DNA from: Rhodobacterales bacterium | GTDB lineage: Bacteria; Pseudomonadota; Alphaproteobacteria; Rhodobacterales; Rhodobacteraceae | Assembly (NCBI GenBank): GCA_026400325.1 | Contig: JAPLPF010000163.1 | Span: forward strand, 1-34,428 | DNA length: 34,428 nt | Direction of reading: 5' to 3' | Part shown: piece after piece, positions 10,384 through 29,246 of the stretch | How positions within the stretch are numbered: position 1 is the stretch's first letter | Layout: the number at the start of each line of letters is the position of its first letter | The notes under the pieces: model-generated | The model's database searches: none | What the model was told of the DNA's origin: nothing | The model's input: the letters and a program-made list of their open reading frames with translations, nothing else | Position numbers and translations under genes: made by a program

Positions 10384-10388
10384 GCCCC

Positions 10389-12353: not shown

Positions 12354-12377
12354 CGGTTGCACGGTTGGGACCCTGGC

Positions 12378-13298: not shown

Positions 13299-13360
13299 GC
13301 CGAATTCCACCCCTCGCTCCACCGCTGACCATAAATCGCCGAAGTGGTGGCGGTTGGGGT

Positions 13361-13383: not shown

Positions 13384-13400
13384 TCATCAGACCGGCCAAA

Positions 13401-13421
13401 GTTGATTTGGTAACTATCAAC
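13401..13421. promoter_or_regulatory. 21-bp inverted repeat, candidate operator 2
   Basis: A perfect 6-bp inverted repeat GTTGAT (13401-13406) and ATCAAC (13416-13421) with a 9-bp A/T-richer spacer, about 150 bp before the first gene of the plus-strand operon. Two dyads of equal width 40 bp apart, roughly four helical turns, would suit cooperative binding by a dimeric regulator. No clear promoter boxes were found. Confidence 0.4.
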
Positions 13422-13574
13422 GTGGGAGTGAGTCACCGTCATTGCAGATGCGGGCCGCAGGCGGCCCCGACGGGGTTGCAGGGAAAGGGCATCTTTTCCC
13501 GGCTGCAGCGGATGTACAAAGGGGTGATGGCAGGGGCCGTGGTGCAGCCACGAGTCTGAGGGGAGGACGACGCA

Positions 13575-14642
13575 ATGCGGGCAATTCGGTTCCATGGGGC
13601 CAGGGACATCAGGGTTGAAGACGTGGCCGAACCGTCAGGGCTGCTGCTTCCCGATGATGTGCTGATCGCCCCGGCCGTCACCGGCATCTGCGGCACGGAC
13701 CTGCACGAGTACATCGCCGGGCCGATCGTGACGCCGAAAGAACCGCATGTCTTTACCGGGGCCAGCAACCCGCAGATTCTGGGACATGAGTTTTCCGCCC
13801 GTGTTCTGGCGGTGGGGGATGCCGTGGCCCATGTTAAGGCGGGGGATCGCATCTCGATCCAGCCGCTTCTGTCGCCGCGGAATGACTATTACGGCAAGCG
13901 TGGCCTTTATCACCTGTCGCCGAAGATGGGCTGTGTCGGCCTCAGCTGGGCCTGGGGCGGCATGGCCGAAAAAGCCGTCATCAAGGATTACAACGCCCAG
14001 CCGGTTCCGGACGGGATCACCGACGATCAGGCGGCGATGATCGAACCTGCGGCTGTGGCGCTGTATGGTGTGGACCGTGGCGGGGTCACGGCGGGGTCAA
14101 CCGTGCTGGTCTCCGGTGCCGGACCGATTGGCGCGCTGACGATCCTTGCGGCCAAGGCGGCGGGGGCATCCACCATCATCGTGTCCGAGCCGAACCCGAA
14201 CCGCCGGCGCATCATCGCCGAGATCGCGCCCTACGCCCATATCGTCGACCCGCGCGATGGCACGCTGGCACAGATCGTTGGCGACCTGACCGAGGAAGGC
14301 GTGGGCGTTGACGTGGCGCTGGAATGTGTCGGGCTTGAGGCGTCGCTGAATGCCTGCGTGCAGGCTGTGCGGCGGCAGGGCAGGGTCGTGCAGGTCGGTC
14401 TGCACATGAAGCCCGCCAGCATTGATGCAATGCTGTGGGCGCTGAAGGACATCACGGTCGAGGCAACCTGGTGCTACCCGACGCAAATCTGGCCGCGCAT
14501 TGCCCGGATGATCGCGGCGGGCACATTCCCGGTGGAGAAGGTGATTACCGCCCGCATCGACGCAAAGGACGTGGTCGCCAAGGGGTTCGAGGCGCTGCTT
14601 AACCCTACCGGCGAGCATCTGAAAATTCTGGTCACCACCTGA
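13575..14642 (+). CDS. Zinc-type MDR alcohol/polyol dehydrogenase (butanediol/sorbitol dehydrogenase-like)
   Basis: A 355-residue medium-chain dehydrogenase. Catalytic-zinc ligands are visible as Cys39 (Gly-Ile-Cys-Gly-Thr-Asp), His71-Glu72 (Gly-His-Glu) and Glu157 (Ile-Glu-Pro), and the coenzyme motif is Gly-Ala-Gly-Pro-Ile-Gly at 181-186. The lobe that in 2,3-butanediol dehydrogenases carries four structural-zinc cysteines is present (about 98-120) but has lost all but one Cys, so it likely folds without that zinc. It would oxidise a secondary alcohol with NAD(H). A strong GAGGGGAGGA site precedes the ATG. It is the first gene of the large plus-strand run, so it may act early on the imported compound. 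Confidence 0.85.
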   Translation: MRAIRFHGARDIRVEDVAEPSGLLLPDDVLIAPAVTGICGTDLHEYIAGPIVTPKEPHVFTGASNPQILGHEFSARVLAVGDAVAHVKAGDRISIQPLLSPRNDYYGKRGLYHLSPKMGCVGLSWAWGGMAEKAVIKDYNAQPVPDGITDDQAAMIEPAAVALYGVDRGGVTAGSTVLVSGAGPIGALTILAAKAAGASTIIVSEPNPNRRRIIAEIAPYAHIVDPRDGTLAQIVGDLTEEGVGVDVALECVGLEASLNACVQAVRRQGRVVQVGLHMKPASIDAMLWALKDITVEATWCYPTQIWPRIARMIAAGTFPVEKVITARIDAKDVVAKGFEALLNPTGEHLKILVTT

Positions 14643-14671
14643 CCGCTGGACCGAAAACAAGAAAGACAAGA

Positions 14672-15745
14672 ATGATGACCAAGGAAAACGTCGCTCTCAT
14701 CGTCGGGGCCACGGGGCTGTCTGGCAGCTATACCGGGCGGCTTTTGAAGGAGCACGGCTGGACCGTAGTGACCTTGTCGCGCAGCGCAGCCGATCTGGAG
14801 TTTTCCGATCGCCACATCGCCGCTGACCTGCAAGATGCGGCGTCGACCTCGGCGGCGCTCAAGGTGGCGGGGGACGTGACGCATGTGTTCTTCTGCACCT
14901 GGTCGCGTCAGGCGAACGAGGCAGAGAATGTTCGCGTCAACGCCCTGATGATCCGCAACCTGTTCGACGGGCTGGCGGGCGCGCCCATCAAACATGCGGC
15001 GCTGGTGACTGGCCTCAAGCACTACCTCGGGTCGTTCGACGATTATGCCAAGGTCAAGCCCTACACGCCCTTTCTTGAAAGCAGCCCGCGCCTGCCCGGC
15101 CTGAACTTCTATTACGCGCAGGAAGACGTGCTGTTCGAGATGGCGGAAAAGCGCGGCTTTACCTGGTCGGTGCACCGCCCGCACACGATGATCGGCTTTG
15201 TCATCGGCAATGCCATGAACATGGCCGTGACGCTGGCGGTCTATGCGAGCATCTGCAAGCACACCGGGCGGCCCTTCGTCTATCCGGGTTCGCCCGAGCA
15301 GTTGAATGCAGTCACCGACGTGACCGATGCACGCCTGCTGGCCAAGCAGTTGCACTGGGCCGCGACCACGCCCGAGGCGGCGAACACCCCTTTAAACACC
15401 TCGAACGGCGACGTCTTCCGCTGGACCTGGCTCTGGCAGCAGATCGCGGACTACTTCGGGATCGTAGCCGCGCCCTATCCGGGCCAGCCGACCCCGCTGG
15501 AAGGCCAGATGGCCGATGCGCAGACCGTCTGGTCCGAGATCGTGGCCAAGCATGGTTTGCAGGATATTCCGGTGTCGAAGCTGGCCTCGTGGTGGCACAG
15601 CGACGCGGACCTTGGCCGCACGCTGGAATGCTTCACCGACATGACCAACAGCCGGACGCTGGGGTTCGACGCCTACCAGTCCACCCGCAGCAGCTTCACC
15701 GACGTGTTCGACGAGCTGCGCGCCCGTCGCATCATCCCGGCGTGA
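14672..15745 (+). CDS. PRISE-type short-chain dehydrogenase (iridoid synthase/progesterone 5-beta-reductase-like)
   Basis: A 357-residue atypical SDR with Gly-Ala-Thr-Gly-Leu-Ser-Gly at 12-18. The PRISE hallmarks are there: Thr-Gly-Leu-Lys-His-Tyr-Leu-Gly at 113-120 with Lys116, and Asn-Phe-Tyr-Tyr-Ala-Gln-Glu-Asp with Tyr148, a 32-residue spacing equal to that of the plant enzyme's Lys146/Tyr178 pair. PRISE enzymes reduce activated C=C bonds of enones or enals with NADPH. In bacteria their substrates are largely unknown. Here it sits second in a catabolic operon, so it may reduce, or in reverse desaturate, a cyclic enone intermediate (inference). Two ATGs at 14672 and 14675 are equally possible. 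Confidence 0.8.
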   Translation: MMTKENVALIVGATGLSGSYTGRLLKEHGWTVVTLSRSAADLEFSDRHIAADLQDAASTSAALKVAGDVTHVFFCTWSRQANEAENVRVNALMIRNLFDGLAGAPIKHAALVTGLKHYLGSFDDYAKVKPYTPFLESSPRLPGLNFYYAQEDVLFEMAEKRGFTWSVHRPHTMIGFVIGNAMNMAVTLAVYASICKHTGRPFVYPGSPEQLNAVTDVTDARLLAKQLHWAATTPEAANTPLNTSNGDVFRWTWLWQQIADYFGIVAAPYPGQPTPLEGQMADAQTVWSEIVAKHGLQDIPVSKLASWWHSDADLGRTLECFTDMTNSRTLGFDAYQSTRSSFTDVFDELRARRIIPA

Positions 15746-15755
15746 GGAGGCACCC

Positions 15756-16040
15756 ATGCACTATGTTGTTCATTGCCTTGACCATGACGGCGCCGTTGAC
15801 AAGCGGCTGGCGAATTACGACGCGCACAAGGCCTATCTGGCGGCTGCACCCGTGAAAACCGTGATCTCCGGCCCGCTTATGGCCGATGACGAACAGACGA
15901 TGATCGGCAGCTGCTTTGTGCTGGAGGCCGACAGCCTGGCCGAGGTTGAGGCGTTCAACAGCAACGACCCCTTCGCCAAGGTTGGTCTTTGGAAGACGGT
16001 CTCGATTCGCCCGTTCTCCAAGCGCGTGGACAACCGCTGA
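15756..16040 (+). CDS. YciI-family small protein
   Basis: A 94-residue protein with the YciI opening (Met-His-Tyr-Val-Val-His-Cys-Leu-Asp), a mid-region Gly-Pro-Leu and Gly-Ser-Cys-Phe-Val-Leu-Glu-Ala, and the closing Asn-Asp-Pro-Phe-Ala-Lys-x-Gly-Leu-Trp motif. The ferredoxin-like family includes proteins with dehalogenase- or lyase-like active sites built on a His-Asp pair, visible here as His7 and Asp9-His10. It may help handle a muconolactone-like or polyhydroxylated intermediate, but no reaction can be assigned. A GAGGAGG site precedes the start, and its TGA overlaps the next ATG (TGATG). Confidence 0.82.
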   Translation: MHYVVHCLDHDGAVDKRLANYDAHKAYLAAAPVKTVISGPLMADDEQTMIGSCFVLEADSLAEVEAFNSNDPFAKVGLWKTVSIRPFSKRVDNR

Positions 16041-17044
16041 TGGCACATCCGGTCAAGATCGCCCTCGTGGGCATGGGGTGGTGGGGGCAGAAGATGCTCT
16101 CGGTCCTGCAATCGGCGCCTGGGGATATTCAGGTTGTGCGCGCGGTGGAGCCGAACATCGACTCGGTTCGCCAGCTGTGTGCCGACAAGGGCATCGCGCT
16201 TTCGGCAAACTATGCCGATGCGCTGAGCGACCCTGCGGTTGAAGCGGTGGTTCTGGCCACGCCCCATTCGCTGCACACCGACCAGATCGCGGCGGCAGTT
16301 GCGGCGGGCAAGCACATCTTCTGCGAAAAGCCGTTGGCCCTGACCAAGGCCGAGGCGGAACGCTCGGTCGCCCTCTGCCGCGATGCCGGGCTGGTGCTGG
16401 GCATGGGGCATGAGCGCCGGTTCGAACCGCCGGTGGCCGAGATGCTGGCAATGGCCGACGCGGGCACCCTGGGCCGCATCCACCAGATCGAGGCGAATTT
16501 CAGCCACGACAAATTCCTGTCGCTGGCCCGCGACAACTGGCGGCTCAAGGCCGATCAGGCCCCGGCGGGGGGGATGACGGCGACGGGCATCCACCTTCTG
16601 GACCTGTCGGTGCGGCTGCTGGGCGCGGCGGAAAGTGTGCTGTGCATCTGCGAGCAGCTGTCGTCGGACCTGCCGCAAGGCGATACGGTGGCGGCCTTCG
16701 TCAAGTTCAAGGGCGGCGGCACGTCCTACGTCTCGGCCTCGTTGGCCAACCCGTTCATCTCGCGCTTTGCGGTCTTCGGCTCGAAAGGCTGGATCGACAT
16801 CCGCGACAAGGCCCATGTCGAGGCGCCGGATGGCTGGATCGTCACCTCGGCCATGGCGGGTGGCCCGATCGTGACCCGCGAAATCGGCAAGGCCGAACCC
16901 GTGAAGGGCAATCTGGTGGCCTTTGCCCGCGCCGTGCGCGGGGCCGACTATCCGATCACCGGCGCGCATCTGGTGAACAACATCGCGCTTCTGGAGGCGG
17001 TCTTCGCCTCGGCGAAAAGCGGCCGCATCGAAACTGTGGCCTGA
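16040..17044 (+). CDS. Gfo/Idh/MocA-family oxidoreductase
   Basis: A 334-residue dehydrogenase with Rossmann motif Gly-Met-Gly-Trp-Trp-Gly at 11-16 and the family motif Cys-Glu-Lys-Pro-Leu-Ala around 95-100, whose Lys is catalytic. A second landmark is Asp-Xaa-Gly-type Ala-Thr-Gly-Ile-His-Leu-Leu-Asp near residue 180. Members oxidise or epimerise sugars and inositols with NAD(P), and some act on phthalate-type diols. With a sugar-type importer and two MDR dehydrogenases nearby, a polyol or cyclitol ring carbon is a reasonable target, but this is inference. The ATG at 16040 is fixed by the TGATG overlap with the YciI gene; an earlier start at 15989 would run through that gene. Confidence 0.85.
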   Translation: MAHPVKIALVGMGWWGQKMLSVLQSAPGDIQVVRAVEPNIDSVRQLCADKGIALSANYADALSDPAVEAVVLATPHSLHTDQIAAAVAAGKHIFCEKPLALTKAEAERSVALCRDAGLVLGMGHERRFEPPVAEMLAMADAGTLGRIHQIEANFSHDKFLSLARDNWRLKADQAPAGGMTATGIHLLDLSVRLLGAAESVLCICEQLSSDLPQGDTVAAFVKFKGGGTSYVSASLANPFISRFAVFGSKGWIDIRDKAHVEAPDGWIVTSAMAGGPIVTREIGKAEPVKGNLVAFARAVRGADYPITGAHLVNNIALLEAVFASAKSGRIETVA

Positions 17045-17068
17045 CCCTCGAACCTGACGGAGATCCTG

Positions 17069-18049
17069 ATGAAAGCGCTGATTTTCGATCAACCGAACAA
17101 GCCTGTCGTCACCGACATCCAGATGCCCAGCATCGGGGACAACGAGGTGATGGTCCGGTCGCGTCGGGTGGGCATCTGCCATTCGGATTACGAACTGCTG
17201 GCGGGCAACTACATCATCCCGATCTCCTATCCCGTGACCCCCGGCCACGAATGGGTGGGCGAGGTGGTCGAGGTCGGTCGCAACGTCAAGGGGTTGCAGC
17301 GCGGTGACCGGGTGGTGGGCGAATGCGTGATCCGCACGCCCGAACGCATCCACCACTTCGGCTTTTCGATGGATGGCGCGAACCGCGAATTCTTTGCGGC
17401 ACGGCCCGAATGGCTGCACAAGCTGCCCGACGGGGTGGATGACGCAAAAGGCGCGCTGATCGAGCCGTTCACCTGCGGCTACTACGCGGTGCTGCGGCAT
17501 GGCGGGGTGGATGCGTCGAACACCGTGGTTGTCTCGGGTGGCGGGACCATCGGCCTCGTCTCGGCTGCGGCGGCCATCGGCATGGGCGCAAAGGTGATCG
17601 TGGTCGATCCAGTGCCGCTGCGCCGCGAGATTGCGATGAAGCTGGGTGCCGTGGGCACGGTGGACCCCATGGCCGGGAACCCGATCGAGGCCGTGACCGA
17701 GATGACCAAGGGCGGTGCCGATCTGGTGATCGAGGCGGCGGGTCATCCGTCATCCTTGGCCAACGTGTTCGATTACGCCCGGCCCGAAGGCTTTGTCTCG
17801 ATGGTCGGCATCAGCATCGGCCAGAAGATCCCGGTCGAACTGGGCAAGATCCAGATCAAGGACCTGACCGTGCGCGGTTGCATCGGGTCACCCGGCGTCT
17901 GGCCCGCCGCGATCCGGTTTCTGGAGCGCACGGGGATCGATCTGTCGCCGATCCAGACCCACAGCTTTGCGCTGGATGACGCGATCGCGGCTTACGCGCT
18001 GGGCAAAGACCCGACCAAGGCCGTGAAGATCACGCTGGAAATCGCCTGA
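17069..18049 (+). CDS. Zinc-type MDR dehydrogenase, short form lacking the structural-zinc lobe
   Basis: A 326-residue medium-chain dehydrogenase. Likely catalytic-zinc ligands are Cys37 (Gly-Ile-Cys-His-Ser-Asp), His60-Glu61 (Gly-His-Glu-Trp) and Glu132 (Ile-Glu-Pro-Phe); the coenzyme motif is Gly-Gly-Gly-Thr-Ile-Gly at 157-162. It is shorter than the usual 340-360 residues because the four-cysteine lobe is missing. The nearest relatives are sugar-alcohol and idonate-type dehydrogenases. It lies between the Gfo/Idh/MocA gene and the ABC importer, with a CGGAG site before the ATG. Together with the operon's first gene it implies at least two alcohol oxidations on the substrate. Confidence 0.83.
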   Translation: MKALIFDQPNKPVVTDIQMPSIGDNEVMVRSRRVGICHSDYELLAGNYIIPISYPVTPGHEWVGEVVEVGRNVKGLQRGDRVVGECVIRTPERIHHFGFSMDGANREFFAARPEWLHKLPDGVDDAKGALIEPFTCGYYAVLRHGGVDASNTVVVSGGGTIGLVSAAAAIGMGAKVIVVDPVPLRREIAMKLGAVGTVDPMAGNPIEAVTEMTKGGADLVIEAAGHPSSLANVFDYARPEGFVSMVGISIGQKIPVELGKIQIKDLTVRGCIGSPGVWPAAIRFLERTGIDLSPIQTHSFALDDAIAAYALGKDPTKAVKITLEIA

Positions 18050-18083
18050 CAGGTCAGGGCGCAAAGGGGGGGAGGGAGGGGAA

Positions 18084-19115
18084 ATGGCACAGCACACACA
18101 GACCGCAGGAAAAGCCTCGCTTGACCTTGACCTGCGGTCGTTCAAGCCGACGCGCGGCTTTGTGACGGTGGTCGTCTCGACACTGGCGCTGCTGCTGGTC
18201 TGCGTGATTTTCGCGCCCTCGGCGGTGTCGGCGGGCGGCCTTGCCGGCAGCCTGCCCTTTGCCGCGATCATCGCGATTGTCGGCCTGGGGCAGATGCTGG
18301 TCGTGCAGCAAGGCGGGTTCGACCTGTCGCTGGCTGGGGGCGTGTCGCTGGCGGTGGTGATTACGACACACCTGTCGGGGGGGGATGATGCCCAGTTGTT
18401 CGGGGCCATAGGTCTGGCGTTCGTCTGTGCGGTGGTTGCAGGTCTGGTGAACGGTATTCTTGTGGGCGTGCTGCGTCTGAACGCCATCGTGGCGACCATC
18501 GGGATGAACGCGCTGCTCTATGGTGCGGTCTTTGCGGTGTCCGGCGGCGTTCCCCGGATCACGACCCCGCTGATGGCAGAGATTGCGGGCGGCAAGATCA
18601 TGGGCATCCCGCATTCCGTGCTTTTTGCCCTGGCCATCATGCTGATCGTCAGCTTCGTGCTGAAAAAGACCGTCGTCGGCCGCCGGTTCGAGGCGATCGG
18701 GGCCAACCCGGCGGCGGCCCATGCGGCGGGCCTGAACGTGCGGCTTTATCAGGCGATGGCCTATGTCTTTGCCCAGCTTCACTATTGCGTCGCGGGCATC
18801 CTGATTTCCGGGATCACGAGAGAGCCGACTGCCTTTCAGGGCGACAGCCTGCTGCTGCCATCGGTGGCCGTGGTCGTGCTGGCGGGAACCTCGCTTCTGG
18901 GCGGGCGCGGCTTTCCCATCTCGACCGTGATCGCTGCGTTCTTTCTGAACCAACTAAGCCAGTTCGCGCTGGCTGTCGGTGTGCCCTTCTCGGCCCAGAC
19001 CATCATCCAGGCATTGGCCCTGGTCTTCGGGATCGGCGTCTACTCGCTGCGCTGGAAACAGGCGGCAACCAAACGTGCACTAAAGTCCAAAACGGAGGAA
19101 ACGGACAATGTTTAA
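18084..19115 (+). CDS. Sugar-type ABC transporter permease (RbsC/BPD_transp_2 family)
   Basis: A 343-residue inner-membrane protein with about eight to ten helices and the family hallmarks: Gly-Gly-Phe-Asp-Leu-Ser near 95 in helix 3 and Ala-Gly-Thr-Ser-Leu-Leu-Gly-Gly-Arg-Gly near 268-277, the loop that contacts the ATPase. The family imports ribose, xylose, inositol, autoinducer-2 and similar compounds. The importer is unusual in that the second permease is fused to the ATPase (20244-22772), so the pore is probably a heterodimer. The ribosome site GGGAGGGG precedes the ATG, and the 3' end overlaps the binding-protein gene by 8 bp. Confidence 0.88.
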   Translation: MAQHTQTAGKASLDLDLRSFKPTRGFVTVVVSTLALLLVCVIFAPSAVSAGGLAGSLPFAAIIAIVGLGQMLVVQQGGFDLSLAGGVSLAVVITTHLSGGDDAQLFGAIGLAFVCAVVAGLVNGILVGVLRLNAIVATIGMNALLYGAVFAVSGGVPRITTPLMAEIAGGKIMGIPHSVLFALAIMLIVSFVLKKTVVGRRFEAIGANPAAAHAAGLNVRLYQAMAYVFAQLHYCVAGILISGITREPTAFQGDSLLLPSVAVVVLAGTSLLGGRGFPISTVIAAFFLNQLSQFALAVGVPFSAQTIIQALALVFGIGVYSLRWKQAATKRALKSKTEETDNV

Positions 19116-20169
19116 GGCAAAGACGATGACTGCCGCCTGTGCGGCAGCAACACTGACCATGGCCCTTGCTGCCACGACGGTGCTGGCTGAAACCCCGTCC
19201 TGGTGCGGGCCGAACCAGGCCTCGCTGGCGCTGCTGGACGGCTTTGGCGGCAACAGCTGGCGCCTTGTGACCACGGCATCGGGTGCGGAAGAGGCGGCCA
19301 AATGCCCGTCGATCACCCAGTACGAATATGCCGATGGCCAGGGCGACACGCAAAAGGCGATCTCGGACATCAACTCGATGGCGGCGCGCGGGATCAAGGC
19401 GATGGTGGTATTTGGCGATGCCGGCCCCGCCGTCCTGCCCGCGCTGACGAACGCACACCGCGCGGGCACCATCGTGGTGCCCTACCGTGTGAATGTCGGC
19501 GGAACCGAGGGCGAGAACTATGCCAAGTTCATCGGTTCGTCCTTCGTCGAGGATGGCGTCAGCTGGGGCAACTGGATCAAGGAGGTCCTGCCCGAAGGTG
19601 GAAACGTGCTTTTCCTCAGTGGTCCTGCCGGCAACAGCCAGGGCGTTGACGAACTGGCAGGCATGAAACAGGTGCTGGATGACAAATATGTCTTCATCAA
19701 CCCCGAACCCTTTGCCGTCACCAACTGGGATCCGTCGCTGACCCAGCAGGTCCTGTCGGCCGAGATCGCCAAGAACGACAAGATCGACGTGATCGTGTCC
19801 GACTTCGGCCCCTCGCTCGTGGGCGCGCTGCCGGTGTTCGCGGAATTCGGCCGGTCGATCCCCGCGCTTGCCACGTCGGACGGCAACTCGCTGTCCTGCT
19901 TCTGGGAGCAGAACAAGGACGCCAACCCCGACTTCAAACTGTTCACTGTCGCCACCGGCAACGACAACGTCCGTCTGGCCGTGCAGTGGGCTGTCGCCCT
20001 GGCGACCGGCGGCACCCCGCCGACCGACGAGATCTTCAAGGCTCCGGTCTTTGAAAACTCGGTCTCGGGCACGCCGAACCCGGTGACCTGCCGCCCCGAT
20101 CTGCCCGGCTCGATCTACCTGTCGGCAGAAATGGCGGATGACGCGCAGGCGAAAGCTGTCGGCCAGTGA
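19108..20169 (+). CDS. Periplasmic sugar-type substrate-binding protein (Peripla_BP_4 family)
   Basis: A 353-residue exported protein with a signal peptide (basic start, hydrophobic core, Val-Leu-Ala then Glu28). The mature part has the two-lobed type-1 fold seen in ribose/galactose-binding proteins, including an Asp-Gly-Phe-Gly-Gly-Asn-Ser-Trp-Arg start of strand 1, Tyr-Arg-Val-Asn in the hinge-side strand and Ala-Thr-Ser-Asp-Gly-Asn late. Aromatic residues near the start would stack on a ring. It delivers the substrate to the permeases encoded either side. A GGAGG site lies within the end of the permease gene. A strong hairpin follows the gene and probably raises its expression over the ATPase. 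Confidence 0.88.
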   Translation: MFKAKTMTAACAAATLTMALAATTVLAETPSWCGPNQASLALLDGFGGNSWRLVTTASGAEEAAKCPSITQYEYADGQGDTQKAISDINSMAARGIKAMVVFGDAGPAVLPALTNAHRAGTIVVPYRVNVGGTEGENYAKFIGSSFVEDGVSWGNWIKEVLPEGGNVLFLSGPAGNSQGVDELAGMKQVLDDKYVFINPEPFAVTNWDPSLTQQVLSAEIAKNDKIDVIVSDFGPSLVGALPVFAEFGRSIPALATSDGNSLSCFWEQNKDANPDFKLFTVATGNDNVRLAVQWAVALATGGTPPTDEIFKAPVFENSVSGTPNPVTCRPDLPGSIYLSAEMADDAQAKAVGQ

Positions 20170-20178
20170 TCTGGTCGT

Positions 20179-20204
20179 GGCCCCGGGCAGCGTTGTCCGG
20201 GGCC
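20179..20204 (+). terminator. Strong stem-loop after the binding-protein gene (attenuator or mRNA stabiliser)
   Basis: Perfect 8-bp GC arms GGCCCCGG (20179-20186) and CCGGGGCC (20197-20204) enclose a 10-base loop, nine bases after the binding-protein stop and 39 before the ATPase start. There is no T-run, so complete intrinsic termination is unlikely. Such hairpins after binding-protein genes commonly protect the 3' end and cut read-through, giving excess binding protein. Confidence 0.65.
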
Positions 20205-20243
20205 GCACCCTTCTAACTTCCCGCAGGGATGGCAGGACGAGGC

Positions 20244-22772: not shown

Positions 22773-22774
22773 GC

Positions 22775-23839
22775 GTGAAGCAGGACTTCCTCTACCAGTC
22801 GCCGCCCTTGCGGGTGCGGTTCGCGGCGGGTGCTGTGGGCCATGTAGGCGACGAGATCGACGCAATCGGTGGCAGCCGCGCGCTGATCCTTGCGACGCCG
22901 TTTCAGAAAGCCGATGCCGAGGCGCTGGCCGCCCGGATCGGTGCCAAGGCGGCGGGCGTCTTTGCCGAGGCGCGGATGCACACCCCGATCGAAGTTACAA
23001 CGCAGGCGTTGCAGGCCTACGCCGAAAGCGGGGCTGACTGCCTTGTGTCCTATGGCGGTGGATCGACGATTGGCCTTGGCAAGGCAATCGCCTGGCGGAA
23101 TGATGCGCCCCATCTGGTCGTGGCCACCACCTACGCCGGGTCCGAAGTGACCGATATCCTTGGTGAGACGGAAGCCCGGGTGAAAACCACACGCCGCGAC
23201 CCGCGCATCCGGCCCGAGGCGGTGATCTATGACCCCGAACTGACCCTTGGCCTGCCCGTTGCGATGAGCGTTGCCAGCGGTCTGAACGCGATGGCCCATG
23301 CGATCGAAGGGCTTTATGCCACTGACGCCAATCCCGTGACCTCGATGATGGCAGTGGAAGGGATTGCCGCCTTGCAACGGTCGCTTCCCGGCATCTGCCG
23401 CAACCCGGCCGATCTGGGCGCGCGCAGCGAGGCGCTTTATGGCTCGTGGCTGTGCGGCACGGTGCTCGGCGCCGTGTCGATGGCGCTGCATCACAAGCTT
23501 TGCCACACGCTGGGTGGTGCGCTTGACCTGCCCCATGCCGAAACGCATGCCATCCTGTTGCCGCACACGGTGGCCTTCAACGCGATGGCAGCTGCAGAGG
23601 CACTTCAGCCGGCCGCAAGACTGTTTGGTGGCGATCTTGGCGGCGGTCTTTACGATCTGGCCACATCGCTGGGCGCGCCCCGGGCGCTTCGGGATTTCGG
23701 CGTTGGCCGCAGCGATCTGCCCCACATCGCCGACCTGGCCGTCAAGAACCCCTACGCCAACCCGCGCGAGGTGACGCGCGACGGCATTCTCGCTCTGCTC
23801 GAGGCCGGCTGGGCTGGTTCCCGGCCCGCCCCGATCTGA
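22775..23839 (+). CDS. Maleylacetate reductase (iron-containing alcohol dehydrogenase family)
   Basis: A 354-residue enzyme that reduces maleylacetate to 3-oxoadipate with NAD(P)H, the step after ring cleavage of hydroxyquinol or chlorocatechols. Visible are the coenzyme loop Tyr-Gly-Gly-Gly-Ser-Thr-Ile-Gly-Leu-Gly-Lys, the Thr-Thr-Tyr-Ala-Gly-Ser-Glu stretch and the His-rich region His-His-Lys-Leu-Cys-His-Thr-Leu-Gly-Gly through His-Ala-Glu-Thr-His, all typical of maleylacetate reductases rather than of general Fe-dependent dehydrogenases. Length matches the family (about 350). The GTG start is two bases past the fusion protein's stop, so the importer and this enzyme are co-transcribed. The gene for the preceding reaction, just downstream, is broken. 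Confidence 0.88.
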   Translation: MKQDFLYQSPPLRVRFAAGAVGHVGDEIDAIGGSRALILATPFQKADAEALAARIGAKAAGVFAEARMHTPIEVTTQALQAYAESGADCLVSYGGGSTIGLGKAIAWRNDAPHLVVATTYAGSEVTDILGETEARVKTTRRDPRIRPEAVIYDPELTLGLPVAMSVASGLNAMAHAIEGLYATDANPVTSMMAVEGIAALQRSLPGICRNPADLGARSEALYGSWLCGTVLGAVSMALHHKLCHTLGGALDLPHAETHAILLPHTVAFNAMAAAEALQPAARLFGGDLGGGLYDLATSLGAPRALRDFGVGRSDLPHIADLAVKNPYANPREVTRDGILALLEAGWAGSRPAPI

Positions 23840-23870
23840 CCCGGGCCAATCTGACCTGAAAGGACATGCG

Positions 23871-24675
23871 ATGACTGCTCAACCCGCCATTGACTACTTC
23901 ACCGAAAGCCATTCGATCGAGGCTGTGAACGGACGGATGGGCAAGGCCACCGACCCGCGTCTGGCCCATGTGATGGCCCGGTTGGTGACGCATCTGCACA
24001 CCTTCATCAAGGATGTGGACCTGACCCAGGCCGAATGGGCGGTTGCAATCGACTTCCTGACCCGCACTGGCCAGATCTGCGATGGCAACCGGCAGGAATA
24101 CATCCTTCTTTCGGATGTGCTGGGCGCCTCGATGCTGGTCGATGCGATCAACAACCGCCGCCCGACCGGCGCTACGGAAAACACCGTGCTGGGGCCGTTC
24201 CATGTGGACGGCGTGTCGGAATAGCGTGACCGATCTGGAGGGCACCCCGCTGGAAGGGGTGCGGATCGACGTCTGGTCCGACAATGAGGATGGTTTCTAT
24301 GACGTCCAGCAGCCCGGGGTTCAGCCGCGCCACAACAACCGCGGTGTGTTCGTCACCGGGCCTGACGGGCGCTACTGGTTCAAGGGGATCAAGCCCGTGT
24401 CCTATCCTATCCCCGACGATGGCCCGGTGGGGCAGATGCTGGGCCATCTGGGCCGACACCCCTTCCGCCCCGCGCACATGCATTTCATCGTAAGCCGCGA
24501 GGGTTTTGAAACCGTCGTCACCCATACCTTCGTGGCGGGCGATGACTATCTGCAATCGGATGCCGTCTTTGGGGTAAAGCAATCCCTGATCGCGCCGTTC
24601 GAACCTGTGGTGGGCGGCGATACGAAGTGGCGGTCGACCTTCGATTTCGTGCTGAACAGGGGGGAGGCGCAATGA
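23871..24675 (+). pseudogene. Hydroxyquinol 1,2-dioxygenase (intradiol), broken by internal deletion and frameshift
   Basis: Residues 1-117 from ATG 23871 are the helical dimerisation domain of hydroxyquinol 1,2-dioxygenases, up to Thr-Glu-Asn-Thr-Val-Leu-Gly-Pro-Phe-His-Val-Asp-Gly, then TAG at 24222-24224. The rest of the protein resumes in the next frame with Val-Thr-Asp-Leu-Glu-Gly and runs to 24675, keeping all four iron ligands: Tyr in Gly-Phe-Tyr-Asp-Val-Gln, Tyr in Tyr-Pro-Ile-Pro, and both His in Arg-Pro-Ala-His-Met-His. Intact homologues carry roughly 25 more residues between the two parts, so about 70-75 bp seem lost. A GTG at 24226 could start the second half alone, making two fragments. 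The missing first strand of the catalytic domain argues against function. The stop overlaps the next ATG. Confidence 0.8.
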
Positions 24676-25706
24676 CCGCAGATCGCACAGGCCCCCGCAT
24701 CGCCTTCTTGGGAACCGGGGCGCAGGGGGCGTCCATCGCCGCCGATTTCGCGCTGGCCGGGCTGGATGTCACTTTCATCGACCAGTGGCCCGCCCATATC
24801 GAGGCGATCCGCGCGAATGGCATCACGGTGAACCTGCCCACGCGGCAGATCAATGCCCGCGTGCCCGCGCTGCACCTGTGCCAGGTCGCGGAAATCAAGG
24901 AACCCTTCGATCTGATCTTTCTGGTGGTCAAGGCCTATGACACCACCTGGGCCACCCAGCTGATCAAGCCGGTCCTCGCCGAGGATGGCTTTGTGATCGG
25001 CCTGCAGAACGGCATGACGCATGAGGATATCGCCGCCGTGGTGGGCCGCCACCGGACCCTTGGCGCCGTGATCGAGATTGCGTCGAACATGTGGGTTCCC
25101 GGCGTGACAAACCGGCAGAACGACCACGACGAGTCGTGGTTTGCGATGGGTGCGCTTGACCCTGCGCAACAGCACCGCGTCGAAGCCGTGGCCGACATCC
25201 TGCGCCATTCCGGCCGGGTCGAGGTGACGGATGACATCCGCTCGGCCAAGTGGATGAAGCTGGTGGTCAATGCCGCCGAGCTGATCCCGTCGGCCATCAT
25301 CGACACCGCGCTCAACGACGCCGCCCGGGCGCCCGGGATGCTGGAGGTGATGCGCGAAGCCGGGTACGAGGCGATGCAGGCCGCCCTGTCCGATGGGGCC
25401 ACGATCATGCCGATCATCGGGATGCCACCCACGATGAGCAACGATCCGGAACGCTATGTCGACGAAATCCTTGACGAAGTCCTGCGGACCTTTTCGCGTG
25501 AGGATACGTTGACCACATCCCTGCAGGACTGGCGCAAGGGCCGCCGGGCCGAGGTGGAAGAGGTGAACGGCTGGGTCGTGAACACCCTGCGCGCGCATGG
25601 CCGCGATGCCCCGGTCAACCGGCGGGTGGTCGAGATCGCCTTGCAGATCGAGGCGGGCACGCTGGCCCCCCGGCCGGAAAACGTCCACCTGCTGACGGAA
25701 CGCTGA
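24672..25706 (+). CDS. Ketopantoate reductase-like (ApbA/PanE family) dehydrogenase
   Basis: A 344-residue protein with Rossmann motif Gly-Thr-Gly-Ala-Gln-Gly at 14-19, Val-Val-Lys-Ala-Tyr-Asp and Gly-Leu-Gln-Asn-Gly in the coenzyme domain, and the catalytic Lys in Ser-Ala-Lys-Trp-Met-Lys-Leu-Val-Val-Asn. The family reduces 2-keto acids to 2-hydroxyacids; biosynthetic PanE is about 300 residues. Its location between ring-cleavage and CoA-transferase genes suggests a catabolic 2-keto or 2-hydroxy acid rather than pantothenate synthesis, which is inference. ATG 24672 overlaps the dioxygenase stop as ATGA, so translation of this gene may have depended on coupling to the now-broken gene. Confidence 0.8.
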   Translation: MTADRTGPRIAFLGTGAQGASIAADFALAGLDVTFIDQWPAHIEAIRANGITVNLPTRQINARVPALHLCQVAEIKEPFDLIFLVVKAYDTTWATQLIKPVLAEDGFVIGLQNGMTHEDIAAVVGRHRTLGAVIEIASNMWVPGVTNRQNDHDESWFAMGALDPAQQHRVEAVADILRHSGRVEVTDDIRSAKWMKLVVNAAELIPSAIIDTALNDAARAPGMLEVMREAGYEAMQAALSDGATIMPIIGMPPTMSNDPERYVDEILDEVLRTFSREDTLTTSLQDWRKGRRAEVEEVNGWVVNTLRAHGRDAPVNRRVVEIALQIEAGTLAPRPENVHLLTER

Positions 25707-25719
25707 TCCGGGGGCCATG

Positions 25720-26052
25720 ATGCCGAACGTGAAGATCTACGTCGACGAAGGCCTCTATCCCGCTTGCCGCGAACGCCTGGTCGCCGCTCTGGGCCCGATC
25801 CTTGACATGCTGTGCGCGGACCTCGCCGTTGACCGGCCAGCCTGCCAGATGGCGGTGATGCCGGTGCTGGCGATGCCCGGCCTGCCCCCTGTCAACGTGG
25901 AACTCGCGATCATGCCGCGCCCCGAACGCACGCGGGTGGTGTTGCTTGGCGTCTGCGCCAAGCTGCGCGCGATGGTGGGTGCGGCAACCGGCGGCCATGT
26001 CGCCATCCGGGTCACCACGCTGGACCCCGAAACCTACATCGCCCTGAAATAG
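25720..26052 (+). CDS. Tautomerase-like small protein with potential N-terminal Pro
   Basis: A 110-residue protein. Two ATGs stand in tandem (25717 and 25720); the second is followed by a Pro codon, giving Met-Pro-Asn-Val-Lys-Ile-Tyr-Val-Asp, the style of 4-oxalocrotonate tautomerase-superfamily starts in which Met is removed and Pro1 is the catalytic base. The length would suit two fused beta-alpha-beta units. It could isomerise an unsaturated keto acid or lactone from ring cleavage. Beyond the start, I see no decisive motif, so the family call is tentative. It lies 14 bp after the ketopantoate-reductase-like gene and 11 bp before the CoA-transferase gene. Confidence 0.55.
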   Translation: MPNVKIYVDEGLYPACRERLVAALGPILDMLCADLAVDRPACQMAVMPVLAMPGLPPVNVELAIMPRPERTRVVLLGVCAKLRAMVGAATGGHVAIRVTTLDPETYIALK

Positions 26053-26063
26053 GACGCGACGAC

Positions 26064-26798
26064 ATGGACAAGACACTCCCTGATCTGGCCACCGCCGTTG
26101 CGGGCATCCGCGATGACATGACCGTGATGATCGGCGGCTTTGGCGGATCGGGCGCTCCCATCGAACTGATCCACGCGCTGATCGACCGCTTCGTCGCGAC
26201 GGGCCACCCGAGGGGCCTGACCGTCGTCAACAACAACGCCGGAAACGGCCACGTCGGCCTTGCCGCCCTGATCGAGGCCGGGATGGTGGCCAAGCTGATC
26301 TGCTCTTTCCCGCGTTCGGCCGATCCGGTCGTCTTCACCGAACGCTATCTCGCCGGAAAGATCGAGCTTGAACTCGTCCCGCAGGGCACGCTGGCCGAAC
26401 GCATCCGCGCCGGCGGGGCGGGGATTCCGGCGTTCTATACTCCCACCAGTTATGGCACCGATCTGGCCAAGGGCAAACCGGTCGAGGTGTTCGAAGGGCG
26501 CGCTTACGTGCAGGAACGCTGGCTGAAGGCAGATTGCGCGTTGATCAAGGCGCATCTGGGCGACCGTCTGGGCAACCTGACCTACCGGATGGCCGCGCGG
26601 AACTTCAATCCGCTGATGTGCATGGCCGCCGCGACCACCATCGTGCAGGTCAGCCGCATCGTCGCCCCCGGTGAGATCGACCCCGAGGCCGTCATCACCC
26701 CCGGCATCTTCGTGCAGGGCGTGGTGGAGGTGCCAGACCCCGCGCAGGAGGAAGACCTGAACCGCGCCGGTGCGCGCTATCCACTGGTGGCGGCATGA
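26064..26798 (+). CDS. pcaI: 3-oxoadipate CoA-transferase subunit A
   Basis: A 244-residue alpha subunit of a family I CoA-transferase. The glycine-rich oxyanion/CoA stretch Gly-Gly-Phe-Gly-Gly-Ser-Gly-Ala-Pro lies near 24-32, followed by Asn-Asn-Asn-Ala-Gly-Asn-Gly and the Pro-Gln-Gly-Thr-Leu-Ala-Glu-Arg-Ile-Arg-Ala-Gly-Gly-Ala-Gly-Ile-Pro-Ala-Phe stretch typical of PcaI/ScoA. With the beta subunit it moves CoA from succinyl-CoA to 3-oxoadipate. Substrate choice over acetoacetate is inferred from the flanking maleylacetate reductase and thiolase genes. Its stop overlaps the next start as ATGA, as is usual for the two subunits. Confidence 0.88.
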   Translation: MDKTLPDLATAVAGIRDDMTVMIGGFGGSGAPIELIHALIDRFVATGHPRGLTVVNNNAGNGHVGLAALIEAGMVAKLICSFPRSADPVVFTERYLAGKIELELVPQGTLAERIRAGGAGIPAFYTPTSYGTDLAKGKPVEVFEGRAYVQERWLKADCALIKAHLGDRLGNLTYRMAARNFNPLMCMAAATTIVQVSRIVAPGEIDPEAVITPGIFVQGVVEVPDPAQEEDLNRAGARYPLVAA

Positions 26799-27460
26799 AA
26801 CTCTCTCCCGCCCAGATGGCATGGCGCGCGGCGCAGGACATCACCGACGGCGCCTATGTCAACCTTGGCATCGGTTTTCCCGAAATGGTGGCGAAATTCC
26901 AGCCGCCCGGACGCGAGGCGATCTTTCATACCGAAAATGGCATCCTTGGCTTTGGTGAGGCCCCGCCTGCGGGGGCCGAGGATTGGGACCTCATCAACGC
27001 CGGCAAGAAGGCGGTAACGCTGAAACCCGGCACGGCCTTCTTCCATCATGCCGACAGCTTTGCCATGGTGCGCGGCGGGCATCTGGATGTGGCGATCCTT
27101 GGCGCCTATGAGGTGGCCGAGACCGGCGATCTGGCGAACTGGTCCACCGGGCCAAAGGGCGTGCCTGCGGTGGGCGGGGCGATGGACCTTGTCCACGGGG
27201 CCAGGCGCGTGGCGGTGATGACCGACCACGTCACCAAGGACGGCAAGCCGAAACTTCTGGAACGCTGCACCCTGCCGTTGACCGGGGTCGGATGTGTGAC
27301 CCGCGTCTACTCCAGCCATGCGGTGATCGACATTGTCGGCGGGCGCTTTGTGCTGCGGGAAAAGCTGCCCTCGCTGAGCCATGACGCGCTGCAATCGATG
27401 ACCGGGGCCGTCCTGCATCTGGACGGCCCCGTCGCTGATCTTGTCGTGCCCGACCTGTGA
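26795..27460 (+). CDS. pcaJ: 3-oxoadipate CoA-transferase subunit B
   Basis: A 221-residue beta subunit carrying the catalytic glutamate in Phe-His-Thr-Glu47-Asn-Gly-Ile-Leu-Gly, which forms the glutamyl-CoA intermediate. Gly-Ile-Gly-Phe-Pro near 25-29 and the closing Leu-Pro-Leu-Thr-Gly-Val-Gly-Cys-Val and Val-Ile-Asp-Ile-Val motifs also fit the family. It works as a heteromer with the A subunit encoded immediately upstream, and the 4-bp overlap suggests balanced synthesis. The product, 3-oxoadipyl-CoA, is the substrate of the next gene's thiolase. Confidence 0.9.
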
Positions 27461-27473
27461 AAGAAGCCCTGCC

Positions 27474-28676
27474 ATGACCGATGTCTTCATCTGCGACTAT
27501 ATCCGCACCCCCATCGGCCGGTTCGGCGGCAGCCTGTCCTCGGTCCGGGCCGATGACCTGGGCGCCGTTCCCCTGCGCGCGTTGATGGCGCGCAACGCAG
27601 GCGTGGACTGGGCTGCGGTCGAGGATGTGATCTTCGGCTGCGCCAATCAGGCGGGCGAGGACAACCGCAACGTGGCCCGCATGTCGGCCCTTCTGGCCGG
27701 GCTTCCGGTGACGGTGACCGGCACCACGATCAACCGGCTGTGCGGCTCGGGGATGGATGCGGTGCTGGTGGCCGCCCGGCAGATCAGGGCGGGCGAGGCT
27801 GACCTGATGATCGCGGGCGGCGTCGAAAGCATGTCGCGCGCGCCCTTTGTCATGCCGAAGGCCGAAGCCGCCTTCAGCCGCAACGCAGAGATTTATGACA
27901 CCACCATCGGCTGGCGCTTCGTCAACCCGCTGATGCACGCGCAATACGGCGTCGAATCGATGCCCGAAACTGGCGAGAACGTCGCCGAGGACTTCGCCAT
28001 CTCTCGCACCGATCAGGATGCCTTTGCGCTGCGCTCGCAGGCCAAGGCATCGGCGGCGCAGGCCAACGGGCGGCTGGCGGCCGAGATCACACCGGTGACC
28101 ATCCCGCAGCGCAAGGGCGATGCGCTGGTGGTGGACCGCGACGAACATCCCCGCGCCACGACGATGGAGGCTTTGGCCAAACTTGGCACGCCGTTCCGCA
28201 AGGGTGGCACGGTGACGGCGGGCAATGCCAGCGGGGTCAACGACGGAGCGGCGGCGCTGATCCTGGCCTCGGCAGCGGCGGCGCGGACATACGGGCTGAC
28301 GCCGATTGCGCGGGTTCTGGGCGGGGCCACGGCAGGGGTGGCGCCGCGGATCATGGGCTTTGGTCCGGTACCGGCCAGCAAAAAGCTGATGGCTCGGCTG
28401 GGGCTTCGGCAGGCCGACTTTGACGTGATCGAGTTGAACGAAGCCTTCGCCAGCCAGGGCCTTGCCACCCTGCGCGCCTTGGGGATCGCCGATGACGACG
28501 CCCGCGTCAACCCGAACGGCGGGGCGATTGCGCTTGGTCACCCCTTGGGCATGTCCGGCGCGCGGATCACCGGAACCGCGGCGCTGCAACTGGCCCTGAC
28601 CGAGGGACGCAGGTCCCTGTCAACCATGTGCATCGGCGTGGGCCAGGGCATCGCCATCGCGCTGGAGCGGGTCTGA
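27474..28676 (+). CDS. pcaF: 3-oxoadipyl-CoA thiolase
   Basis: A 400-residue thiolase, the usual PcaF length. The nucleophile is Cys90 in Asn-Arg-Leu-Cys-Gly-Ser-Gly; the second active-site blocks are [11 protein letters not shown] and Met-Cys-Ile-Gly-Val-Gly-Gln-Gly near the C-terminus, the Val form being common in PcaF. Asn-Glu-Ala-Phe-Ala is also present. It splits 3-oxoadipyl-CoA into succinyl-CoA and acetyl-CoA, ending the pathway in the TCA cycle. The ATG at 27474 lies 13 bp after the CoA-transferase stop with a GAAAG site. All catalytic residues are intact, so the lower pathway remains usable even though the dioxygenase gene is broken. Confidence 0.9.
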
Positions 28677-28727
28677 CAAAGGGCATCACAATCGCAGCTG
28701 GCTGCATCATGAGGGAGGAAATGGATC

Positions 28728-29246
28728 ATGGCTGAACGTGTCTATGGCATGCACCATATCGGCATCACCGTGCCCGATATCGAACAGGGGATCGCCTTCT
28801 TCAAGGCCGTCTTCGGCGCGGTCGAAGTGTTCCGCACCGGACCGTTTGACGTGGACGAGGCGTTCATGGAACGGCGGCTGGGAACGCCCCCGCACACCCG
28901 CATCCGCGATCTGGTTTTCCTGCGCTGCGGTGCAGGAACCAATGTCGAGCTTTTTGAATACAGTGGCGAGGACAGTTCTGCCCGGCCCCGGCGCAATTCC
29001 GAAATCGGCGGCACGCATCTGTGTTTCGAAGTGGAGGACGTGTTCGATTCCGTCGAACGCCTGCGCGCCGCGGGCATCGAATTTCTGGACGGTCCCAACA
29101 CCGTGACCGAAGGGCCGCTGGCGGGCTTCAACTGGATCTACTTTAACGCGCCATGGGGGCAGTCCCTGGAAATCGCCAGCTTTTCTGCACTGGGGTATGA
29201 GAAAGACACGCCTGAGCGCATCTGGCGGGCGAAGTCTCGGGGCTGA
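28728..29246 (+). CDS. VOC-family metalloprotein (glyoxalase/dioxygenase-like)
   Basis: A 172-residue protein with two beta-alpha-beta-beta-beta modules. Likely metal ligands are His in Met-His-His-Ile-Gly-Ile-Thr-Val-Pro-Asp near the start, His in Gly-Thr-His-Leu-Cys-Phe-Glu-Val in the second module, and Glu in Ser-Leu-Glu-Ile near 148. The family includes epimerases, glyoxalases, fosfomycin-type enzymes and extradiol dioxygenases, so the reaction is open; it is too short for a classical two-domain extradiol enzyme. A GAGGGAGGA site precedes the ATG. It is 51 bp past the thiolase and seems to be the last gene of the catabolic run, with the next gene on the opposite strand. Confidence 0.8.
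   Translation: MAERVYGMHHIGITVPDIEQGIAFFKAVFGAVEVFRTGPFDVDEAFMERRLGTPPHTRIRDLVFLRCGAGTNVELFEYSGEDSSARPRRNSEIGGTHLCFEVEDVFDSVERLRAAGIEFLDGPNTVTEGPLAGFNWIYFNAPWGQSLEIASFSALGYEKDTPERIWRAKSRG

Follow-up and report, generated by a model that had tools for sequence, protein, structure and literature searches.

A conserved gene block joining a sugar-type importer to hydroxyquinol cleavage suggests a possible route from cyclitols to 3-oxoadipate

The hydroxyquinol lower pathway of resorcinol and 2,4,5-trichlorophenoxyacetic acid (2,4,5-T) degradation comprises hydroxyquinol 1,2-dioxygenase (HQD), maleylacetate reductase (MAR), the 3-oxoacid CoA-transferase PcaI/PcaJ and the thiolase PcaF, and the small protein TftG belongs to the 2,4,5-T route. 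Here, a gene block is described that contains the same families, including a TftG-like YciI protein. Unlike the resorcinol and 2,4,5-T pathway, the block has no flavin hydroxylase but a sugar-type importer and polyol-type dehydrogenases instead. The block spans positions 13575 to 29246 of the window, which is the whole of a 34,428-nucleotide contig (C93; JAPLPF010000163.1) from the 3.56 Mb draft genome of a Rhodobacterales bacterium (GCA_026400325.1).

Two other known routes share features with this block. In the conversion of quinate and shikimate to protocatechuate, a polyhydroxylated cyclohexane is aromatised by oxidation and dehydration without an oxygenase, and the route ends at 3-oxoadipate. 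In contrast to the block, this route has a carboxylated substrate, protocatechuate as an intermediate and a QuiC-type dehydratase. The iol and the Thermotoga IolG/IolM/IolN routes resemble the block in that a Gfo/Idh/MocA oxidoreductase (GFO) and two Zn-dependent dehydrogenases (ADH1 and ADH2) share superfamilies with IolG and IolM. However, these three proteins score far below the IolG and IolM cut-offs, and the block ends in aromatic ring cleavage. The canonical inositol pathway was ruled out for the block because of these low scores and because no other iol gene was recognised: IolE, IolD, IolB, IolC and IolJ were not found among the block proteins scanned against Pfam and NCBIfam.

A related arrangement has been described in Corynebacterium glutamicum, as far as the available passages of two papers cover it. 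In the operon iolT2-rhcM2D2, the genes of a maleylacetate reductase and a dioxygenase are combined with that of an inositol uptake system; the operon is controlled by IhtR, which responds most strongly to 1,2,4-trihydroxybenzene (PMC7764795). The genes oxiC-cg3390-oxiD-oxiE include those of two inositol dehydrogenases verified biochemically and of a putative sugar phosphate isomerase (PMC9603128) and, judging from the locus-tag numbering, would directly follow this operon. As in the block, a transporter, here for inositol, is combined with a maleylacetate reductase and a dioxygenase near dehydrogenases (iol2). In contrast to the block, the two inositol uptake systems of C. glutamicum are secondary transporters and not ABC importers, and neither PRISE nor YciI is named in these passages. 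The authors link the operon to indole, hydroquinone and trihydroxybenzene, and not to a conversion of cyclitols to hydroxyquinol (PMC7764795). In the open-access PMC literature, which was the only literature covered, no paper describing such a conversion was found.

For the block in the window, we favour, with evenly balanced confidence, a role in taking up and fully degrading a sugar-like carbocycle, which is most likely a cyclitol and would be aromatised to hydroxyquinol without an oxygenase. An oxygenase-independent, sugar-type entry to the hydroxyquinol pathway is well supported by the comparisons, whereas the cyclitol itself is a best guess with about an even chance of being right. Candidate substrates are most likely isomers of inositol, deoxyinositols (for example quercitol) or closely related derivatives.

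The 16 plus-strand genes of the block are all arranged head to tail and are separated by no more than 59 bases or overlap slightly (Table 1). The first half runs from ADH1 through the PRISE, YciI, GFO and ADH2 genes to the permease, the binding protein and the ATPase-permease fusion of the importer. It is followed by MAR, HQD, a ketopantoate reductase-like dehydrogenase (KPR), a protein of 110 amino acids (aa), PcaI, PcaJ, PcaF and a glyoxalase-fold protein (VOC). On the upstream side of this run, the genes of a regulator and of a beta-hydroxyacid dehydrogenase family oxidoreductase (HIBDH) are divergent on the minus strand. A simple terminator scan between 12300 and 30300 detected six sites, fewer than in the shuffled sequences (mean 12.5). 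Compared with a relative (G285), 19 tested pieces of the window showed ratios of nonsynonymous to synonymous substitution rates (dN/dS) of 0.051-0.178.

Table 1. Genes of the block and its divergent neighbours in the window, with the family evidence for each product
Gene	Product	Position	Strand	Evidence
Regulator	Regulator with sugar-type binding domain	10575..12362	-	Pfam SBP_bac_1 1.9e-19, residues 210-487
HIBDH	Beta-hydroxyacid dehydrogenase family oxidoreductase	12378..13595	-	Pfam NAD_binding_2, NAD_binding_11
ADH1	Zn-dependent polyol-type dehydrogenase	13575..14642	+	Pfam ADH_N, ADH_zinc_N
PRISE	Enone reductase-like short-chain dehydrogenase/reductase (SDR)	14672..15745	+	Pfam PRISE 70.7 bits (cut-off 27)
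YciI	TftG-like small protein	15756..16040	+	Pfam YCII
GFO	Gfo/Idh/MocA oxidoreductase	16040..17044	+	Pfam; IolG 112.3 bits (cut-off 355)
ADH2	Zn-dependent dehydrogenase	17069..18049	+	Pfam; best NCBIfam IolM 154.4 bits (cut-off 450)
Permease	CUT2-type sugar permease	18084..19115	+	Pfam BPD_transp_2; nearest NCBIfam AraH 97.3 bits (cut-off 378)
Binding protein	Periplasmic sugar-type binding protein	19108..20169	+	Pfam Peripla_BP_4 2.4e-23
ATPase-permease	ATPase fused to second permease	20229..22772	+	Pfam ABC_tran x2, BPD_transp_2; AlsA 384.4 bits (cut-off 772)
MAR	Maleylacetate reductase	22775..23839	+	Solved maleylacetate reductases 3hl0 1.8e-133, 3w5s 4.7e-133
HQD	Hydroxyquinol 1,2-dioxygenase, broken copy	23871..24675	+	Pfam Dioxygenase_N 1.2e-32, Dioxygenase_C 1.1e-33
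KPR	Ketopantoate reductase-like dehydrogenase	24672..25706	+	Pfam ApbA, ApbA_C; TIGR00745 147.4 bits (cut-off 141.35)
110-aa protein	Protein starting Met-Pro	25720..26052	+	Pro-2 invariant in 5/5 aligned sequences
PcaI	3-oxoacid CoA-transferase subunit A	26064..26798	+	TIGR02429 343.9 bits (cut-off 128.5)
PcaJ	3-oxoacid CoA-transferase subunit B	26795..27460	+	TIGR02428 292.1 bits (cut-off 243.55)
PcaF	3-oxoadipyl-CoA thiolase	27474..28676	+	TIGR02430 687.5 bits (cut-off 597)
VOC	Glyoxalase-fold protein	28728..29246	+	Pfam Glyoxalase, Glyoxalase_4

A preliminary description of this stretch, made from the sequence alone, had proposed a lower half of MAR, PcaI/PcaJ and PcaF, which is confirmed by PDB matches and NCBIfam cut-offs. 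It had also proposed a sugar-type importer, and the Pfam domains agree with this and with membership in CUT2, as they comprise a Peripla_BP_4 binding protein, BPD_transp_2 permeases, one of them fused to the ATPase, and a two-domain ATPase. The dehydrogenases described for the upper half were recovered by Pfam as two Zn-dependent dehydrogenases and a Gfo/Idh/MocA protein, together with PRISE and YciI; the HIBADH-type and KPR-like dehydrogenases come in addition. Likewise, no aromatic hydroxylase or monooxygenase was found by Pfam among the plus-strand genes of the block, as had been stated. The gene inventory was real but incomplete, since the ring-cleavage dioxygenase, the divergent regulator and the 110-aa protein had been overlooked. 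Because a ring-cleavage gene is present and the association recurs across lineages and architectures, the observation is stronger than first stated.

The dioxygenase gene encodes an intradiol type enzyme and is broken in the window, with the N-terminal half (23871-24224) and the C-terminal half (24229-24675) in different frames. In a DNA alignment with three relatives, a stop codon ending at 24224 is followed by the absence of about 59 bases and a frame change, and all three relatives retain the stretch that is deleted at 24224-24229. The intact HQD of G285 matches 6-chlorohydroxyquinol 1,2-dioxygenase (8r2x, 7e-126) and hydroxyquinol 1,2-dioxygenase (1tmx, 6.7e-75), whereas chains named catechol dioxygenase match far more poorly (1.3e-35 or weaker). 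Since both halves are under purifying selection (dN/dS of 0.103 and 0.057 against G285), the break would be a recent event or an assembly error. A second, unbroken HQD with 59 % identity is located on contig C119 of the same genome.

The conserved gene neighbourhood, a check suggested in the preliminary description, was searched in two genome scans. The family scan covered 295 genomes, 15 of which had a PRISE homologue at an E-value of up to 1e-20. In seven of these 15, the source genome included, the identity was at least 82 %, and all seven carry the block. The scan of species genomes provided at least 11 loci with a PRISE identity of at least 79 %, and no locus of the 80 that were kept had an identity between 59 % and 79 %. 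These loci are titled Cypionkella, Pseudooceanicola, Pseudorhodobacter (two), Roseivivax, Mesorhizobium, Rhodobacter, or with a higher group only; a Cypionkella metagenome-assembled genome is the nearest named relative among the matches listed (92 % PRISE identity). With one locus common to both scans, pooling resulted in at least 17 distinct loci with a PRISE identity of at least 79 %, and all named hosts are alphaproteobacteria.

The gene set and, rearrangements aside, its order recur at these 17 loci. As PRISE was the search key, its presence at all 17 is by construction, and some of the gene absences are due to cut contigs or stretches. GFO, ADH2 and the three importer genes occur together with PRISE at 16 of the 17 loci, YciI at 15 (it is absent at L049), the regulator at 14 and MAR at 12. 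ADH1 was found at 14 loci in the stretches compared and at 15 with an extended stretch, and the same numbers apply to HQD in cis. Both genomes without HQD in cis (L048, L049) encode it elsewhere. Three loci (G077, G247, L050) have a rearranged order, yet HQD still adjoins ADH1 or MAR. Given this recurrence and the dN/dS values of 0.051-0.178, the association of the genes in the block is not due to chance.

PRISE alone was rejected as a marker below about 60 % identity without further evidence because the cluster is absent around weaker homologues. No cluster was present around the homologues with 51-55 % identity in four genomes of the same family, around 12 examined loci out of 69 with lower identity, or on Palleronia and Paroceanicella plasmids. 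An exception to this limit are Rhizobium blocks with 58-59 % PRISE identity, which were reached via other genes. In another genome (G157; L035 and L036, joined at about 9020-15257), a PRISE homologue with about 50 % identity lies beside a different sugar-type ABC importer (33 % identity), with no HQD within the stretch.

The comparison with conventional hydroxyquinol clusters shows what distinguishes the block. On C119 of the same genome (L138 3266-16000), MAR and HQD are accompanied by a Liv-type importer, a BKACE gene and a flavin aromatic-ring hydroxylase of 587 aa (Pfam FAD_binding_3 1e-110, Rng_hyd_C 3.7e-21), which has no counterpart in the window block. Similar layouts in Paracoccus, Phaeobacter and Martelella include an annotated FAD-dependent monooxygenase or hydroxylase. 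As a control, ten HQD loci, one per genus, were taken from the 60 best rows of 345 plasmid records, which omits several of the genera there. Eight of the ten have an annotated flavin monooxygenase, hydroxylase or flavin oxidoreductase within 8 kb, and the carriers at these eight loci are of the Liv, TRAP or MFS type. Among the eight, a carbohydrate permease gene is present in R. johnstonii at the stretch edge, at a distance of about 7 kb from HQD; the Roseicitreum stretch contains sugar-acid genes and no sugar importer. The Sagittula locus has neither a flavin gene nor a sugar importer. Aureimonas is the sole control locus with a sugar importer in the same run; no hydroxylase is present within its stretch, and an FAD-binding oxidoreductase gene is located about 11 kb from HQD. 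BKACE genes near HQD were also observed in G247, Phaeobacter gallaeciensis and Skermanella, where they perhaps stand in for the CoA-transferase and thiolase.

More distant versions were searched on plasmids with the regulator, ADH1, GFO, ADH2, HQD and later a TIM-barrel gene as keys, and 28 stretches were examined. A sugar importer is combined with an intradiol dioxygenase in 12 plasmid records, which range from Rhizobium to Rhodococcus; this is a non-random set, as the records were reached via block genes, HQD or neighbours of HQD. In Loktanella salsilacus, the complete block lies next to quinate/shikimate genes. The block is also present in Rhizobium sp. WL3, in R. tumorigenes (here lacking PRISE) and in Sinorhizobium sp. 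B11, with 62-73 % identity in ADH1, GFO and ADH2; HQD is kept in the Rhizobium block despite a rearranged order. In Paraburkholderia largidicola, a four-gene sugar importer is combined with ADH1, HIBDH, YciI, HQD, MAR and PRISE, and in Skermanella an importer with an SDR, HIBDH, HQD, MAR and a ThuA-domain gene. In Aminobacter MSH1, HIBDH, YciI, MAR and HQD occur with a sugar importer of another type and a regulator of the same family (34 % identity). Shinella has an importer, an SDR, an AP_endonuc_2 TIM-barrel protein (NCBIfam QuiC 54.2 bits, sub-threshold), YciI and HQD; MAR is absent within the stretch, and a P450 gene is located on the far side of the regulator. The remaining records are R. 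leguminosarum A1, Rhodococcus opacus, Aureimonas and Azospirillum.

The last two are of special relevance for the cyclitol reading, which they support by carrying IolG together with a gene of the IolE/QuiC fold. In Aureimonas, a single run contains a sugar importer, an AP_endonuc_2 TIM-barrel protein, IolG, a second Gfo protein, Dabb, MAR, HQD, PcaI, PcaJ and PcaF. Its IolG reaches 406.6 bits against a curated equivalog cut-off of 355. The best NCBIfam match of the TIM-barrel protein is the 3-dehydroshikimate dehydratase QuiC, far below the threshold (46.5 bits), and one match (39 %) was found in 289 genomes of the class. By annotation, the Azospirillum run comprises HQD, the TIM-barrel gene, iolG, a Gfo gene, a ChvE-type importer, Dabb and MAR. 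The stretch has no PcaF, and the CoA-transferase genes are found on the opposite strand at a distance of about 10 kb. Taken together, the versions from Alphaproteobacteria to Actinomycetota may belong to an undescribed, widespread aerobic pathway in which cyclitols are converted to hydroxyquinol by oxidation and dehydration alone and further to 3-oxoadipate, a generalisation that we hold more tentatively than the reading of the block itself. Cultured isolates with such blocks include Pseudooceanicola onchidii (strain XY-99, whose block is intact), Loktanella salsilacus, Aureimonas sp. AU20 and Rhizobium sp. WL3.

Side observations from these neighbourhoods concern dehydratase genes. Genes of type II 3-dehydroquinate dehydratase and shikimate dehydrogenase adjoin the Loktanella block (L166 29978-36095) and an operon in Marinovum (L178 59-5277), and a type II dehydratase gene is located near the Paraburkholderia block (L173 8556-9002). 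GFO homologues with 39-52 % identity in other families were discarded as a clue to the substrate because their neighbourhoods are mixed, and an ADH1 homologue in Sinorhizobium medicae (53 %) has a different neighbourhood.

In the proposed route, the CUT2-type importer would take up the substrate, and the Zn- and Gfo-type dehydrogenases would oxidise ring alcohols to ketones. The resulting beta-hydroxyketones would then lose water and tautomerise, with YciI and perhaps the 110-aa protein as candidate enzymes, and PRISE would reduce a conjugated enone where the redox level demands it; this is the weakest step of the proposal. HQD, which is intact in the relatives, is predicted at the family level to cleave hydroxyquinol (1,2,4-trihydroxybenzene) in intradiol fashion to maleylacetate. 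MAR would convert this to 3-oxoadipate, and PcaI/PcaJ and PcaF would yield succinyl-CoA and acetyl-CoA. The divergent regulator probably senses the substrate. The formulas of inositol (C6H12O6) and hydroxyquinol (C6H6O3) differ by three H2O, so the conversion needs no net oxidant. Similarly, 2-deoxy-scyllo-inosose minus two waters equals hydroxyquinol, and this reaction is known acid chemistry.

The individual upper-half proteins fit this route to different degrees. The best NCBIfam scores of ADH1 are 144.6 bits for IolM (cut-off 450) and 150-156 bits for threonine dehydrogenase models (cut-offs 380-458). GFO keeps the lysine of the CEKP motif and the conserved histidine of its superfamily. 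PRISE matches progesterone 5-beta-reductase (4.9e-74), and its family suggests enone 1,4-reductase activity. The best solved match of YciI is TftG, a 5-chloro-2-hydroxyhydroquinone dehydrochlorinase (1e-12), and since this relative acts on a hydroxyquinol-ring intermediate, it was counted in favour of the route. The 110-aa protein has no match in Pfam, NCBIfam or the PDB, is kept in several blocks and is possibly a distant tautomerase. HIBDH is a divergent protein of the 6-PGDH/HIBADH type with all NCBIfam relatives below their cut-offs; its orthologues are shorter, and the gene probably starts near 13298, although the open reading frame extends to 13595.

The nearest NCBIfam relatives of the importer are allose, xylose, arabinose and ribose importers, all below their cut-offs. 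Naming the ligand by searching the binding protein profile against the PDB was abandoned because the protein is only distantly similar to solved sugar-binding proteins. In 289 genomes of the class, the only match to the binding protein at an E-value of up to 1e-50 was that of the window itself. The regulator seems to be a one-component regulator in which a DNA-binding head is fused to a sugar-type solute-binding domain; its nearest solved chain is 5iai, named 'Sugar ABC transporter' (1.1e-30), and no Pfam domain was reported over the head. The sugar-binding type of its ligand domain supports the cyclitol reading. The family looks like a one-component sensor derived from a periplasmic binding protein, and several alphaproteobacterial operons have it next to sugar importers, including operons without HQD in Phaeobacter and Marinovum. 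Members with 33-35 % identity accompany operons in Phaeobacter inhibens, Marinovum and Tritonibacter whose stretches lack HQD; those in Phaeobacter and Marinovum include a sugar importer. These two operons (L177 4642-22977 and L178 6233-21592; regulator identity 33 %) combine the importer with SDRs and 2-oxoacid-dehydrogenase-type genes and are perhaps another lower route for a related substrate.

Several findings weigh against a cyclitol route. In GFO, an alanine replaces the aspartate that lies four residues before the histidine in two aligned IolG proteins; with this replacement and an IolG score far below the cut-off (112.3 against 355 bits), GFO is not a canonical inositol dehydrogenase. 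The window block has no IolE/QuiC-type dehydratase gene by Pfam, and YciI is at most a candidate for the dehydrating step. A YciI relative (33 % identity) adjoins HQD in the gamma-resorcylate cluster of R. johnstonii together with a flavin monooxygenase, and because this is a conventional cluster, YciI is not specific to cyclitols. An iolE gene above cut-off is present in three of seven cluster-bearing genomes, and iolE-like pieces occur at contig ends of the source genome, so plain myo-inositol may already have a route in such genomes; with three of seven, the presence of iolE was uninformative as a discriminator. The HQD of the window is itself broken, and at two loci (L042, L045) HQD and MAR lie on the opposite strand and are 48-64 % identical to those of the window. 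In C. glutamicum, RNA levels on inositol or resorcinol resemble those on indole, DNA binding by IhtR is barely changed by inositol (PMC7764795), and on myo-inositol the cluster iol2 is dispensable while iolD is essential (PMC9603128). Given the weak response of IhtR and the dispensability of iol2, the substrate in C. glutamicum, if the route exists there, would probably be another cyclitol. Finally, at two of the 17 loci the regulator has an oxygenase gene as its neighbour (encoding an FAD_binding_3 protein in G144 and a Rieske oxygenase in L047), and genes for ABM-type 'quinol monooxygenases' were observed with G144, G005, L047, Loktanella and Aminobacter.

These oxygenase and ABM genes would also fit an alternative in which an aromatic or hydroaromatic compound is imported and a hydroxylase is encoded elsewhere or is an unrecognised small ABM-type oxygenase. 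The hydroxylase could act in trans from the C119 cluster, and the type II 3-dehydroquinate dehydratase genes in the vicinity of the blocks in Loktanella and Paraburkholderia point in the same direction. However, ABM genes were found at three of the 17 loci and not in the window, and the importers in the 12 distant records are of the sugar type by annotation or homology. Furthermore, where a control cluster has a flavin gene, this gene lies in cis, and the carriers are mostly of the Liv, TRAP or MFS type. This alternative is considered unlikely, although more probable than the other alternatives.

Another alternative, which appears even less probable, is that a phenolic glycoside is imported, GFO oxidises its sugar to the 3-keto form, and the released aglycone is cleaved as hydroxyquinol. 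The preliminary description had left the choice between a cyclic polyol and a phenolic glycoside. Some distant solved GFO relatives, such as DgpA, act on glycosides, and the ThuA-domain gene in Skermanella and the AP_endonuc_2 genes in Shinella and Aureimonas could be interpreted in this way, as the AP_endonuc_2 fold also occurs among 3-keto-glycoside lyases. On the other hand, by Pfam the window block encodes neither a glycosidase nor an AP_endonuc_2-type protein nor a sugar kinase, and for this reason the cyclic polyol is favoured. The small Aminobacter set of HIBDH, YciI, MAR, HQD and importer also lacks a deglycosylating enzyme by annotation, and most phenolic aglycones would still require a hydroxylase to reach hydroxyquinol.

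It is improbable that the substrate is an acyclic or pyranose sugar that, after import and oxidation to a keto-aldose, is closed to a carbocycle by an intramolecular aldol reaction and then aromatised. The sugar-type importers and polyol-type dehydrogenases would be compatible with this, and YciI, Dabb and ABM proteins share one small alpha/beta-barrel fold that includes polyketide cyclases. Nevertheless, the block contains no enzyme of known carbocycle-forming function, and the IolG of Aureimonas points to a ready-made ring. A mere neighbourhood of a sugar operon and a lower pathway for aromatics, with no functional relation between the two, would suit the opposite-strand genes at L042 and L045 and the fact that only two of the 17 loci have PcaI/PcaJ/PcaF within the stretch examined, but it is very improbable given the short gaps in the window and the retention of HQD in rearranged blocks (G077, G247, L050, Rhizobium) or beside a different importer type.

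The sequence of import, oxidation and aromatisation outlined in the preliminary description thus remains the best supported reading, owing to the deep synteny, the contrast with C119 and the versions carrying IolG, with a cyclitol as candidate substrate and YciI as candidate dehydrating enzyme. If the cyclitol reading is true, a non-aromatic sugar alcohol would be made aromatic solely for its breakdown, which would tie cyclitol catabolism to the 3-oxoadipate pathway and make aromatic-ring cleavage an outlet for sugar-alcohol carbon. It would also provide a rationale for the C. glutamicum operon that combines an inositol transporter with hydroxyquinol genes, and the block would encode enzymes yielding a trihydroxybenzene from inositol-type feedstocks without oxygen.

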